Source: an uncultured Craurococcus sp. (GTDB lineage Bacteria > Pseudomonadota > Alphaproteobacteria > Acetobacterales > Acetobacteraceae). From it: a DNA stretch of 58,477 nt. The DNA is taken from positions 1-58,477 of the forward strand of contig CADCTD010000081.1 in assembly GCA_902805545.1 (NCBI GenBank), written 5' to 3'. Of this stretch, positions 44,043 to 51,839 are shown in pieces; within the stretch, counting starts at the first letter, position 1, and each line of letters begins with the position of its first letter. The notes under the pieces are model-generated. The model was not told where the DNA came from, ran no database searches, and saw nothing but the letters and a program-made list of their open reading frames with translations. A program made the translations under genes and the position numbers.

Positions 44043-44762
44043 ATGACCTGGTCCATCGTCGCGCATGATCCCGCGACCGGCGCCTTCGCCGTCGCGGTGA
44101 CGACCTGTGCCTTTGCGGTCGGCGCGAGCTGCCCCTTCGTGCGCCCGGGCGTCGGCGCGGTCTCCACCCAGTCCATGACCAACCGCTATCTTGGGCCGGC
44201 GGTGCTGGATGGGATGGCGCGCGGCCTGTCGCCGACGGCGGCCATCGAGAGCGCGCTGGCAGGGGATGAGGGGCGCGGCATCCGGCAGGTCCATGCCGTC
44301 GACCGGCACGGGCGGAGCGCGGCCTGGACCGGGCAGAATTGCGTGGAATGGTGCGGCGACCGGCCGGCGCAGGGCTTCTCGGTCGCCGGGAACATGCTCG
44401 CCAGCGAGGCGGTGCTGGCGGATACCGTGGCGGCCTTCGTCACCCGGGACGACCTGCCGCTGGCGGAGCGGCTGGTGGCGGCGCTCGAGGCAGGGGATGC
44501 GGCGGGGGGCGACAGGCGCGGGCGGCAATCCGCGGCGCTGCTGCTGACGACGGTGGAGGACTTTCCCGACATCAACCTGCGGGTGGACGACCATCCGGAG
44601 CCGGTGGGGGAGCTCGGGCGCCTGCTCGGCATCTGGCGGCGGGACCGGGAGCCGGGCCTCCGCGACCAGCCCCGCAAGGCCAATCCATCCGGCTGGATCG
44701 ACCTCGATGCGATAGAGGCCAGCTGGCGGCGGAAGGGGTCGACGCTGCGGTTCCGGCGGTAG
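44043..44762 (+). CDS. DUF1028 Ntn-hydrolase-like protein
   Basis: 239 residues. TWSIVAHDPATGAFAVAVTT, AVGASCPFVRPGVGAVSTQS and GFSVAGNMLAS are DUF1028 hallmarks. The family has an Ntn-hydrolase-like fold of uncertain activity and often sits next to amino-acid or carboxylate uptake genes, as the Bug receptor here. GGGAGGGGA before the ATG at 44043 fixes the start. Confidence 0.9.
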   Translation: MTWSIVAHDPATGAFAVAVTTCAFAVGASCPFVRPGVGAVSTQSMTNRYLGPAVLDGMARGLSPTAAIESALAGDEGRGIRQVHAVDRHGRSAAWTGQNCVEWCGDRPAQGFSVAGNMLASEAVLADTVAAFVTRDDLPLAERLVAALEAGDAAGGDRRGRQSAALLLTTVEDFPDINLRVDDHPEPVGELGRLLGIWRRDREPGLRDQPRKANPSGWIDLDAIEASWRRKGSTLRFRR

Positions 44763-44779
44763 GCCCGTCCCGCCTCCGC

Positions 44780-45244
44780 TCAGCCGCCGAGGGCGGCCTT
44801 CACCAGCGGGCCGGCCTTGGCCATGTCGAGGCTGGCGGCGTGCTTCGCGCGCAGGGCGGCCATCACCTTGCCCATCTCCTTGACGGAGGTGGCGCCGGTC
44901 TCGGCGATGGCGGCCTGGACGGCGGCCTGCATCGCGGCCTCGTCCATCTGCCGGGGGAGGAAGCTCTCGATGACGGCGATCTCCGCCTCCTCCTTCTCGG
45001 CGAGCTCGGGGCGGTTGCCCTGGCGGTAGAGCTCCACGCTCTCGCGCCGGCTCTTCGCCATGCCGCGGAGCATGGCGGTGATCTGGTCGTCCGGGACCTT
45101 GTCGATGCCGGAGGGGCGGGCGGCGATGTCGACGTCCTTCAGCCTTGCCAGGATCATGCGGAGGGTGGAGGTGCGAGCCGCGTCCTTGGCGAGCATCGAG
45201 GCCTTCAGGGACTCGGTGAAGCGGCTGCGCAGGTCCTCGGCCAT
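44780..45244 (-). CDS. yqeY: GatB/YqeY domain protein
   Basis: 154 residues, the full YqeY length. LKASMLAKDAARTSTLRMIL, IESFLPRQMDEAA and MGKVMAALRAKH are typical. The domain resembles the tail of GatB, which binds tRNA; the free protein's role is unclear. CGGAG lies before the ATG. Divergent from carA, with 125 bases between. Confidence 0.93.
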   Translation of the reverse strand: MAEDLRSRFTESLKASMLAKDAARTSTLRMILARLKDVDIAARPSGIDKVPDDQITAMLRGMAKSRRESVELYRQGNRPELAEKEEAEIAVIESFLPRQMDEAAMQAAVQAAIAETGATSVKEMGKVMAALRAKHAASLDMAKAGPLVKAALGG

Positions 45245-45301
45245 GAAATGTCTCCGATTGAATGGGGTGGCGGCTGTAGCATGCGGGCAAGGAAAAGAGG
45301 A

Positions 45302-45356
45302 TTGGGAAGTTTTTTCCCAACTCCGCCTTCCGGGTTGAAATGGGAAGTTGCTTCCC
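45302..45356 (+). promoter_or_regulatory. Two palindromic operator-like sites upstream of carA
   Basis: Site 1, 45302-45320, is TTGGGAA-gtttt-TTCCCAA, a perfect 7-base inverted repeat. Site 2, 45342-45356, is GGGAAG-ttg-CTTCCC, perfect over 6 bases. Both share GGGAAGTT and their centres are 38 bases apart. They lie 14-68 bases before the carA ATG, in an untypically AT-rich patch. Confidence 0.6.
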
Positions 45357-45369
45357 GCATGTTCCGCCC

Positions 45370-46752
45370 ATGCGGACCGTCGAAGAGATCATCGCCCAAC
45401 TCGGCGGCCCGGAGGCCGCCGCGGCGCGTTGCGGCATCGGCACCGAGGCGGTGCGGAAGTGGCGGCAGGCGCGGGCCATCCCGGCCCGCCACTGGCCTTC
45501 CATCCTCGCCGCCACCGGCCTTGCCCTCGCCGACATGCCGGGCACCCCCGAACCCCGTGCGGAGACATCCATGACCGAAACCGAGACCGTGCCCGAAGGC
45601 GCGACTGCCTGCCTGGTTCTGGCCGATGGCAGCGTCCTCTGGGGCCGCGGCTTCGGGGCGACCACGGCGCCGGGCGCGGCGCCGGTGGCGGAGGTCTGCT
45701 TCAACACCGGCATGACGGGGTACCAGGAGACGCTGACCGACCCCTCCTATGCCGGGCAGATCATCACCTTCACCTTCCCCCATATCGGCAATGTCGGCGC
45801 CAACCCCGAGGATATCGAGGCGGTGACGCCGGCGGCGCGGGGCCTCGTCGTCAAGCAGGATCTGACGGAGCCGGCCAATTACCGGGCGACGCGGCACCTC
45901 GACGACTGGCTGAAATCCTTCGGCATCCCGGGCATCGCGGGCGTGGATACGCGGGCGCTGACCATCCGCATCCGCGATGGCGGGGCGCCGAACGGGGTGC
46001 TCTGCTTCCCGGCCGATGGGCGGTTCGACCTCGACTCGCTGCGGGCGCAGGCGGCGGCCTGGCCGGGGCTCGAGGGGATGGACCTGGCGCGCGAGGTCTC
46101 CTGCCGGCAGTCCTATCACTGGGACGAGACGACCTGGGCCTGGCCGGAGGGCTTCGGCCGGCAGACGGCGCCGCGGCACAGGGTCGTCGCCGTGGATTAC
46201 GGGGCGAAGCGCAACATCCTCCGCTGCCTCGCCTCGGCCGGGCTAGACGTGACGGTGGTGCCGGCGACGGCGACGGCGGAGGAGATCCTGCGGCACGAGC
46301 CGGATGGGGTCTTCCTCTCCAACGGCCCGGGTGACCCGGCGGCGACCGGCGCGTATGCGGTGCCCGCCATCCAGGGCGTGCTGGAGCGGCGGGTGCCGGT
46401 CTTCGGCATCTGCCTCGGGCATCAGCTGCTCGGCCTCGCCCTGGGCGGCAAGACCTACAAGCTCGACCGCGGGCACCGGGGAGCGAACCAGCCGGTGAAG
46501 GACCTGGCCACCGGGCGGGTCGAGATCACCAGCCAGAACCATGGCTTCGCCGTGGACGACAAGAGCCTGCCCGAGGGGGTGAAGGTCACGCATGTCTCGC
46601 TCTTCGACCAGTCGAACGAGGGGCTGATGGCGACGGACCGGCCGGCCTTCTCGGTGCAATATCACCCGGAGGCTTCGCCGGGGCCGACGGACAGCCACCA
46701 CCTGTTCCATCGCTTCGTCGCGCTGATCGAGAAGAACAAGGGAGGGGCGTGA
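45370..46752 (+). CDS. carA: Carbamoyl-phosphate synthase small subunit with N-terminal HTH
   Basis: 460 residues. Residues 1-67 are extra: MRTVEEIIAQLGGPEAAAAR, CGIGTEAVRKWRQARAIPAR, HWPSILAATGLAL read as a YdaS/Cro-like helix-turn-helix plus linker. I recall NCBI naming this the carph-isopro domain. Standard CarA begins at Met68. The glutaminase triad is intact: Cys348 (FGICLGHQLLG), His432 and Glu434 (QYHPEA). It hydrolyses glutamine to feed ammonia to CarB for arginine and pyrimidines. The in-frame ATG at 45571 could give a short CarA without HTH. Overlaps the next SDR gene by one base. Confidence 0.93.
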   Translation: MRTVEEIIAQLGGPEAAAARCGIGTEAVRKWRQARAIPARHWPSILAATGLALADMPGTPEPRAETSMTETETVPEGATACLVLADGSVLWGRGFGATTAPGAAPVAEVCFNTGMTGYQETLTDPSYAGQIITFTFPHIGNVGANPEDIEAVTPAARGLVVKQDLTEPANYRATRHLDDWLKSFGIPGIAGVDTRALTIRIRDGGAPNGVLCFPADGRFDLDSLRAQAAAWPGLEGMDLAREVSCRQSYHWDETTWAWPEGFGRQTAPRHRVVAVDYGAKRNILRCLASAGLDVTVVPATATAEEILRHEPDGVFLSNGPGDPAATGAYAVPAIQGVLERRVPVFGICLGHQLLGLALGGKTYKLDRGHRGANQPVKDLATGRVEITSQNHGFAVDDKSLPEGVKVTHVSLFDQSNEGLMATDRPAFSVQYHPEASPGPTDSHHLFHRFVALIEKNKGGA

Positions 46753-47510
46753 TGTTCGATCTGAAGGGCCGCGTCGGGCTGGTCACCGGCGGGAATGGCG
46801 GCATCGGCCTCGGCTTCGCGCGCGGGCTGGCGAAGGCCGGCGCCAGCGTGATGGTCGCCGGGCGGAACGCGGAGAAGAACGCCGCCGCCGTCGCCGAGCT
46901 CAAGGAGCTCGGCGCCGAGGCGGATGCAGTCATCGTCGACGTGACGGAGGCCGCCAGCATCGAGGCGATGGTCAACGCGACGGCCGAGCGCTTCGGCGGC
47001 ATCGACATCCTGGTCAACAATGCCGGGACGAATATCCGCAACCGGCCGGAGGTCTATGCCGAGGCCGACTGGCATGCGGTGATCGACACCAACCTGACCA
47101 GCGCCTACCTCGCCTCCAAGGCGGCCTATCCGCATCTCAAGGGCAGCGGGCATGGGCGGGTCATCAACAACGGCTCCATGCTGTCGATCTTCGGCCTGCC
47201 CTTCCACATCGCCTATGCGGCGTCGAAGGGGGGCGTGGTGCAGTTCACCAAGTCGCTCGCCGTGGCTTGGGCGGCGGACGGGATCACGGTGAACGCCGTG
47301 CTGCCGGGCTGGATCGACACCGACCTGACCCGCAAGGCCCGCAAGGACATGCCGCAGCTGAACGACAACGTGCTGGCGCGGACGCCGAAGGGGCGCTGGG
47401 GCACCATGGAGGATTTCGAGGGGCTGGCGGCTTTCCTCGGGAGCGATGCGAGCGCCTTCATCACCGGGGTGGCGATCCCGGTCGATGGCGGGTTCTCGGT
47501 CCAGGGCTGA
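46752..47510 (+). CDS. SDR, gluconate/deoxygluconate dehydrogenase-like
   Basis: 252 residues, classical SDR: VTGGNGGIGLGFARGLAKAG, NNAGTNIRN, INNGSMLSIFG and YAASKGG. Similar to 5-keto-D-gluconate or 2-deoxy-D-gluconate dehydrogenases. It sits in the carA-carB operon (TGATG overlap with carA), with no obvious link to carbamoyl phosphate. Confidence 0.88.
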   Translation: MFDLKGRVGLVTGGNGGIGLGFARGLAKAGASVMVAGRNAEKNAAAVAELKELGAEADAVIVDVTEAASIEAMVNATAERFGGIDILVNNAGTNIRNRPEVYAEADWHAVIDTNLTSAYLASKAAYPHLKGSGHGRVINNGSMLSIFGLPFHIAYAASKGGVVQFTKSLAVAWAADGITVNAVLPGWIDTDLTRKARKDMPQLNDNVLARTPKGRWGTMEDFEGLAAFLGSDASAFITGVAIPVDGGFSVQG

Positions 47511-47513
47511 GCC

Positions 47514-48149
47514 TTGCCCTCCGCCGACACCCTCCTCGTCTTCGCCGCCCTCTCGCTCGGCCTCGCGGTGACGCCGGGGCCGAACATGCTCTACCTGGTC
47601 TCACGCTCGCTGGCGCAGGGGACGGAGGCGGGGATGGTCTCGCTGGCCGGGTGCCAGGCGGGGTCGCTCGCCATCATGCTCTGCGCCGCGGCGGGCATCA
47701 CGGCGGCGCTGCTCGCCATCCCCCATGCCTGGGACGTGCTGCGCCTCGGCGGCGCGGCCTATCTGCTCTGGCTCGCCTGGCAGAGCGTCCGGCCGGGCGG
47801 GCAGCCGGTCTTCGCGCCGAGGGCGATGCAAAGGGAGCCGGCGGCGCGGCTGTTCAGCGTCGGCTTCGCCACGGCGGCGCTCAACCCGAAGGTGGCGCTC
47901 TTCTACATGGCGGCGCTGCCGCCCTTCATCGCGCCCGACCAGGGGAATGCCTTCACCCAGGCTGTGGTTCTCGGGGTGGTGCAGGTGCTGATCTGCGCGG
48001 GCTTCGATGCGCTGCTGGTCTCGGGCGCCGCCGGCGTCGCACGATTCCTCGGCACGCGGCCGGGCTGGATGGCGGTGCAGCGCTGGGTGCTCGGCGCGGC
48101 GCTCGGGCTGCTGGCGGTGAAGCTGGCGGGAGAGGGGCACCGGGCATGA
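47514..48149 (+). CDS. LysE/RhtB-family amino acid exporter
   Basis: 211 residues, six membrane segments. VTPGPNMLYLVSRSLAQG, the LysE signature, lies near the N-terminus, and ALNPKVALFYMAALPPF follows mid-protein. Exports amino acids or homoserine-type compounds across the inner membrane. The start is TTG, three bases after the SDR stop; overlaps the next gene by four bases. Confidence 0.9.
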   Translation: MPSADTLLVFAALSLGLAVTPGPNMLYLVSRSLAQGTEAGMVSLAGCQAGSLAIMLCAAAGITAALLAIPHAWDVLRLGGAAYLLWLAWQSVRPGGQPVFAPRAMQREPAARLFSVGFATAALNPKVALFYMAALPPFIAPDQGNAFTQAVVLGVVQVLICAGFDALLVSGAAGVARFLGTRPGWMAVQRWVLGAALGLLAVKLAGEGHRA

Positions 48150-48406
48150 CGCTGCTCTTCATCGGATTGCTGGCGCTGTCCTGGACGGGGCTGAGCCTCG
48201 CGGTGCTCGCCATCGTGCTGCGGCGCATCAGCACGCCGCGTCAGGCGGCCTGGCGGGCCGTTGGGATCGGCCTCGTCGTCAACAGCATCTCCGCCTGGTA
48301 CGCCTCGCCCGGCGAGCCGATCGCCTCCGTCATTCTCATCGTGCTCTGCCACCTGCTGCTGCTGCCGGCGCTGCTGGTCGCAGCAAAGCGGGAGGAGATG
48401 CGGTGA
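48146..48406 (+). CDS. Small membrane protein, 86 aa
   Basis: Mostly hydrophobic: helices at about 2-24, 38-52 and 58-78, separated by short basic loops (RRISTPRQAAWR). The ATG overlaps the LysE stop (ATGA). No family recognised. Coding is supported by the overlap pattern of its neighbours. Confidence 0.65.
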   Translation: MTLLFIGLLALSWTGLSLAVLAIVLRRISTPRQAAWRAVGIGLVVNSISAWYASPGEPIASVILIVLCHLLLLPALLVAAKREEMR

Positions 48407-48579
48407 CGCGGCGCCCGCCTCCCCTGCCCGGCCTCGCGGGCTGCGCCCTGCAACCGACGCCCGGGCAGATCCGCGCGCAATGCGAGGCGGAGCGCAGGCG
48501 GCGCGGCATCCGCCGATTGCTGACGCCCGAGACGCGCGACCGCCCTGAATGCCTGCCGCCCACAGCGGCCCAGACCTGA
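48403..48579 (+). CDS. Possible tiny lipoprotein-like protein, 58 aa
   Basis: A GTG overlapping the previous stop (GTGA) opens a 58-residue frame: [20 protein letters not shown], then an Arg-rich stretch and [17 protein letters not shown] looks like a lipobox, but the preceding segment is too short and Pro-rich for a working signal peptide. Either a remnant or a longer-lost gene. Confidence 0.45.
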
Positions 48580-48593
48580 CGGATACCCGACCC

Positions 48594-51839
<3,246 letters not shown>

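Follow-up and report, generated by a model that had tools for sequence, protein, structure and literature searches.

Some trigger enzymes, among them PutA and also BirA and NadR, control transcription through a DNA-binding domain linked to the enzyme. As described in PMC8249747, the sole binding target of E. coli PutA is the putA-putP spacer, which it represses. For E. coli carAB, the account in PMC6245113 gives control by ArgR, PurR, RutR, PepA and PyrH, which are partly trigger enzymes. These regulators, including the trigger enzyme PepA, are separate proteins, whereas at the locus described here CarA itself, fused to an N-terminal helix-turn-helix (HTH) domain, appears to be the regulator. 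HTH-CarA resembles PutA, BirA and NadR as an enzyme carrying a DNA-binding domain, and differs from them in enzyme and pathway, in the Cro type of its domain, in the pair of dyads in a predicted leaderless promoter, and in an internal start that probably gives the domain-free enzyme. The Cro proteins of phages N15, Xfaso 1 and P22 are alike in fold, in sequence matches, in being small HTH proteins and in having dyad operators; unlike them, the HTH here is a domain of an enzyme, the candidate operators belong to a housekeeping gene, and the domain model has no fifth helix of any length over residues 50-67. The domain is a member of NF046037 (carph-isopro). In the open-access literature no paper naming 'carph-isopro' was found, nor an operator or function for the domain, nor, among the listed matches of our searches, a paper on an HTH-fused CarA. 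As far as these searches go, CarA as the carrier, the Cro-type domain, the operator, the promoter geometry and the two starts are new.

The window, a stretch of 58,477 nucleotides, is contig C81 of the 4.53-Mb genome of an uncultured Craurococcus sp. of the Acetobacteraceae. A yqeY gene on the minus strand (44780-45244) is followed by carA on the plus strand (45370-46752, 460 residues), an SDR-like gene, a LysE-like gene, a short open frame and carB (48549-51839); names of neighbours other than carA are our own interpretation of the frames. The SDR-like gene, which overlaps the end of carA, the LysE-like gene and the short open frame occupy 46749-48548 and separate carA from carB.

Enzyme and DNA-binding domain form one polypeptide, encoded by a single open frame with CarA proper at residues 80-454 (TIGR01368) and NF046037 at residues 4-56. 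Domain and linker are encoded at 45370-45570 on the plus strand. The sequence-only reading had described the extra 67 N-terminal residues as a Cro/YdaS-like HTH, and this description agrees with an NF046037 match of 69.3 bits to residues 1-67, above the curated cut-off of 38, and with the Cro matches in fold and profile. The Pfam families P22_Cro (25.7 bits, gathering cut-off 30.2) and YdaS_toxin (23.4 bits, gathering cut-off 30) both fell below their cut-offs. A confident AlphaFold model of the domain has four helices, at residues 4-11, 14-21, 25-34 (the recognition helix) and 39-49, and in the full-length model a linker with pLDDT below 50 at residues 59-69 joins the HTH to CarA. The top Foldseek matches in the PDB were N15 Cro on operator DNA (6on0), N15 Cro alone (2hin) and then Xfaso 1 Cro, with P22 Cro in tenth place; the E-values were modest, at 0.025 or weaker and none at 0.001 or below. 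A profile search recovered the same Cro proteins, the best three with E-values of 0.0005-0.003 and P22 Cro with 0.11. As modelled, the HTH of CarA is a Cro-like helix-turn-helix fold. The NF046037 cut-off was passed in 189 of 200 genomes of Acetobacteraceae, and a profile of the variant-type domain matched in 373 of 397 genomes.

Two dyads of the form GGGAA-N5-TTCCC precede carA, at 45304-45318, where perfect arms extend to 45302-45320, and at 45342-45356. Their centres lie at 45311 and 45349, before the ATG at 45370, exactly where the sequence-only reading had placed them. The two exact palindromes proposed there are real; the shared GGGAAGTT proposed with them is not the conserved unit, which across the family is TGGGAA-N5-TTCCCA with a variable central GTT. 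The candidate operators are thus a distal TGGGAA-GTTTT-TTCCCA at 45303-45319, conserved in relatives, and a proximal TGGGAA-GTTGC-TTCCCG at 45341-45357. Allowing at most one mismatch, GGGAA-N5-TTCCC matches twice in the window, a count that alone proves little, as 33 of 100 shuffled windows held at least two matches. Both window matches are exact, and the whole genome holds six exact places. Two of the other four lie inside long open frames, one overlaps a frame end and one falls just past a frame end; by our interpretation none of the four looks like a promoter. A chance origin of the palindromes, on which the shuffle count alone is insufficient, was ruled out by the six exact genome places together with conservation in relatives, and it is because they are conserved across fused carA loci that the dyads are considered real and beyond chance.

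Conservation was scored in 17-bp windows against TGGGAA-N5-TTCCCA (maximum 12) over the 220 nt before the start of carA, using a motif that was taken from the sequence-only reading and fixed before any relative was inspected. From 230 domain-bearing loci, 172 non-redundant fused carA loci were kept after removal of duplicates, near-duplicates and loci with less than 160 nt upstream; later loci (L316-L362) were inspected separately, outside these counts. The best site scored at least 10 in 165 of the 172 loci, compared with 3 of 1839 background windows taken from these loci, and a second site of at least 9 was present in 160 of 172 (background 2 of 1839). The spacing from site to site was mostly 37-41 bp, with a mode of 38, and the proximal site usually started at -29 to -31. 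Five or six of the seven loci scoring below 10 (L022, L023, L028, L029, L033, L071 and L097) are of a CCGGAA type, and L033 is mixed. Because this variant also scores in the 22 domain-free controls described below (10 in two of them and 9 in five), a single CCGGAA site carries less weight as evidence than one of the TGGGAA type.

Exact TGGGAA-N5-TTCCCA was found at 30 places in 24 whole genomes, of which 29 are at carA by coordinates; four of the 24 genomes had none, and a reversed control pattern gave three places in the same genomes. The sole exact site away from carA lies at G060:C1:909920-909936 (L350, around 1000-1016). A wider regulon was rejected at the level of exact sites, to which the search was confined, as this one place at G060:C1:909920 was all that it gave beyond carA and the four further GGGAA-N5-TTCCCA-like places in the genome of the window (GGGAA-N5-TTCCC) do not, by our interpretation, resemble promoters.

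The 22 control carA genes lack the domain by our own profile at E of 0.01 or below, and 600 nt before the core motif were scored in each; cut or fragmentary hits (L163, L164, L179, L182 and L183) were left out. None of the 22 had a site of at least 10, and three had a site of 9. The sequence-only reading would have failed if other carA genes of the carph-isopro kind had no palindrome upstream, or if genes without the domain had it just as often; the palindrome was instead present in 165 of 172 fused loci and 0 of 22 unfused ones. HTH-CarA therefore has, as a trigger enzyme should, a conserved candidate operator at its own gene. Three controls belong to the Acetobacteraceae themselves, L180 and L315 (G029 and G116, of one genus) and L351 (G488, of another). 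In these three genomes HTH and operator are missing together, which looks like two joint losses; the sole NF046037 match of G116 is an 82-residue frame elsewhere than at carA. Upstream DNA was sufficient in 112 fused loci, and a site scoring 10 or more occurs in 87 of the 92 with a divergent yqeY and in all 20 without yqeY within 1.5 kb, and 19 of the 22 domain-free controls have a yqeY match near carA, all without a site. The sites go with the domain and not with the divergent yqeY, and the possibility that the dyads are a yqeY operator was ruled out by the 20 fused loci and the 19 controls.

In 116 of 133 near-type loci the proximal dyad has a TTG exactly six bases ahead of it; the hexamer that follows the dyad reads nATAAT (A 81%, T 63%, A 51%). 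The dyad would therefore be the 17-bp spacer of a promoter whose transcript starts at the ATG or within a base or two of it. In the window the predicted -35 is TTGAAA (45335-45340, plus strand) and the predicted -10 is CATGTT (45358-45363, plus strand), a weak match to the family consensus, with the proximal candidate operator filling the spacer between them. The ATG falls 12-14 nt after the dyad in 127 of the 133 loci, usually 6-8 nt past the predicted -10, and a Shine-Dalgarno-like stretch precedes this first ATG in 10 of 133. The carA mRNA is probably leaderless, a prediction from position that applies equally to the start at 45370. In the 26 testable far-type loci the mean match to a -10 peaks at exactly 17 nt beyond the dyad, which would therefore put TTCCCA at the -35 place. 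In Gluconobacter oxydans, the transcriptome study PMC5756330 describes a ttGnnn motif, Tatnnn for abundant transcripts, a first -10 position at which T and C are about equally frequent, and 62 mRNAs without a leader, 57 of them with ATG; its main text makes no mention of carA or carbamoyl.

A second start codon lies within the fused gene. The internal ATG at 45571, from which an HTH-free CarA could arise according to the sequence-only reading, is real and is preceded by GGAG at 45561-45564 (plus strand); the product itself, of 393 residues (45571-46752, plus strand), is predicted. Start codons were analysed in 169 of the 172 fused loci, and the linker between the domain and CarA proper contains an ATG in 128 of them. 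A linker ATG with a Shine-Dalgarno sequence is present in 112 of 169 loci, only a GTG or TTG so equipped in 12 more, and neither in 45. The rate of Shine-Dalgarno sequences was 82% for 137 linker ATGs and 13% for 3310 other linker codons; it was 1% for 322 ATGs in the CarA core, taken over roughly its first 200 residues, and none of the 85 ATGs of the domain had such a sequence. In 87 of 131 near-type loci the first ATG has no Shine-Dalgarno sequence and an internal ATG has one. Family members without the HTH use a similar ATG, preceded by AGGA or GGAG, as the start of CarA. Linker ATGs so often carry a Shine-Dalgarno sequence, and core ATGs so rarely do, that an HTH-free CarA is probably produced as well.

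Variation in the operator was compared with the recognition helix in 130 loci with full CarA. In the AlphaFold model, residue 24 lies just before this helix and residue 33 within it. Operator base 2 is mostly non-G in 24 of the 130 loci, and in 23 of these, all but L033, a non-G residue 24 is paired with G or N at position 35; in five loci with S24 but R35, base 2 stays G. Base 2 is G in 589 of 634 arms for proteins with KWRQ and C in 15 of 18 arms for those with KWR[S/A]; for those with KWRT, 8 of 12 have G and 3 have C. The changes are clustered. Two trees were used, the earlier with 131 of 202 rows and the later with the 130 loci; the later has five operator changes and three independent helix-operator pairs on supported branches, and the pairs are too few to reach significance. 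That the operator variant goes with residues of the recognition helix suggests direct recognition of the operator by the domain.

HTH-CarA is very probably a dedicated autorepressor, an enzyme that doubles as the local repressor of its own gene. In the mechanism that we infer, with its steps of binding, dimerisation and repression, its signal and its ratio of two forms, the Cro-type N-terminal domain would bind as dimers to the two TGGGAA-N5-TTCCCA dyads approximately 38 bp apart. HTH bound to the proximal dyad, which fills the spacer between -35 and -10, would block RNA polymerase, so that plentiful CarA would lower the expression of carA. Repression by spacer occupancy is proposed because of the position of the dyad, and autoregulation of a single target because the census places nearly every exact site at carA. 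The leaderless mRNA would yield full-length HTH-CarA from its 5' AUG, and the second start, with its Shine-Dalgarno sequence in the linker, ordinary HTH-free CarA, giving repressor and enzyme from one message. The pairing of sites at this distance would suit two dimers held by one oligomer. A plausible signal, by analogy with E. coli, would be an oligomeric state of the synthase that depends on UMP or ornithine; in the E. coli enzyme, as described in PMC6245113, ornithine favours (alpha-beta)4 and UMP essentially the alpha-beta heterodimer. Such control would couple carA expression to the supply of carbamoyl phosphate, as the sequence-only reading had supposed.

The dyad region lies between two divergent genes, and a separate, free-standing protein that regulates carA or yqeY might accordingly have the dyads as its operator, the HTH of CarA being incidental. 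This is very unlikely: none of the 22 domain-free carA genes, 19 of them with yqeY, has the sites, and all 20 fused loci without yqeY have them; within the family, the examined genomes without the domain are also without the sites; and a regulator of this kind ought to act on other targets too, yet carA accounts for 29 of the 30 exact places. We give a still smaller probability to HTH-CarA binding the dyads in order to activate, or to tether the enzyme architecturally to its gene. The distal dyad does lie on the upstream side of the -35, a position that activators can take, but the proximal dyad occupies a 17-bp spacer of usual length in the 133 near-type loci, where a bound dimer should exclude polymerase, and the far-type dyad covers the -35 place. 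The promoter geometry thus favours repression by HTH-CarA.

As perfect inverted repeats, the dyads might also form RNA structures or terminators, but there is hardly any chance of this, given their position inside the predicted promoter or upstream of it, and given that no Rfam family matched in 44700-47000 at an E-value of 1 or below. A more substantial, though still unlikely, alternative concerns the internal start alone, which could be a relic of the unfused gene, with only full-length HTH-CarA being made. The 45 of 169 loci with no Shine-Dalgarno-bearing start in the linker would fit a relic, as would the genomes that lost the HTH and begin CarA at a similar ATG; a relic should decay, however, and the contrast between linker ATGs (82% of 137) and other linker codons (13%) is maintained in many genera.

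The pairing of domain and candidate operator is seen for the carA fusions of Acetobacteraceae only. Class-wide, the NF046037 cut-off was passed in 52 of 289 genomes. Of the 29 new loci, 9 had no hit to our own profile, and among the 20 proteins inspected only L123, from the same family as the window, is CarA by our interpretation. The idea that every NF046037 protein uses the TGGGAA operator was ruled out by this single CarA among the 20. In 18 of the 19 non-CarA proteins (within L101-L128) a related HTH (FGGIRPMA...TVQGWK) starts a long protein of another kind, with a hydrophobic stretch in some.

A similar design of enzyme, HTH and dyad is present on pyruvate kinase and, less clearly, on a protein that we take to be crotonyl-CoA carboxylase/reductase (Ccr). 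A similar HTH fused to pyruvate kinase matched over the whole query in 12 of 100 genomes of Acetobacteraceae, and 24 of 31 genomes of another alphaproteobacterial family matched the HTH-Ccr fusion. The loci parsed were 9 of 12 for HTH-Pyk, 16 of 23 for HTH-Ccr and 5 of 6 for HTH-free pyk, and both motifs were chosen after inspection of the upstream regions. CTTA-N7-TAAG was found within 150 nt in 8 of 9 HTH-Pyk loci, seven of them at -23 or -24, compared with 0 of 164 background windows and 0 of 5 HTH-free pyk loci. The genome of the window has its own Cro/YdaS-like HTH-pyruvate kinase (L002/L363; G000:C78:2407-2694, minus strand), with CTTA-N7-TAAG 23 nt before the ATG. For HTH-Ccr (L127/L393, G329:C1:98042-98431, and L394-L415), a GTCAA..TTGAC dyad lies upstream in 13 of 16 loci and in 0 of 289 background windows, a comparison within fused loci only.

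A broader generalisation is offered tentatively. A Cro-type domain with a flexible linker may have been grafted repeatedly onto alphaproteobacterial metabolic enzymes (CarA, pyruvate kinase and Ccr), each with its own promoter dyad, and each fusion would then be a single-target self-repressor. For CarA the leaderless start would give the repressor-enzyme and the Shine-Dalgarno start in the linker the plain enzyme, and an effector-driven oligomeric state might decide whether two HTH dimers bridge the paired operators.

A whole bacterial family thus appears to have built a regulator into an enzyme, with a candidate operator that is placed to the base in more than 100 genomes. The locus suggests a function for NF046037, a named yet unexplained domain, and provides a testable promoter. 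It would be a natural case of one gene giving, from two start codons, both an enzyme and an enzyme-repressor, and the pyruvate kinase and Ccr fusions suggest that the design is reusable.
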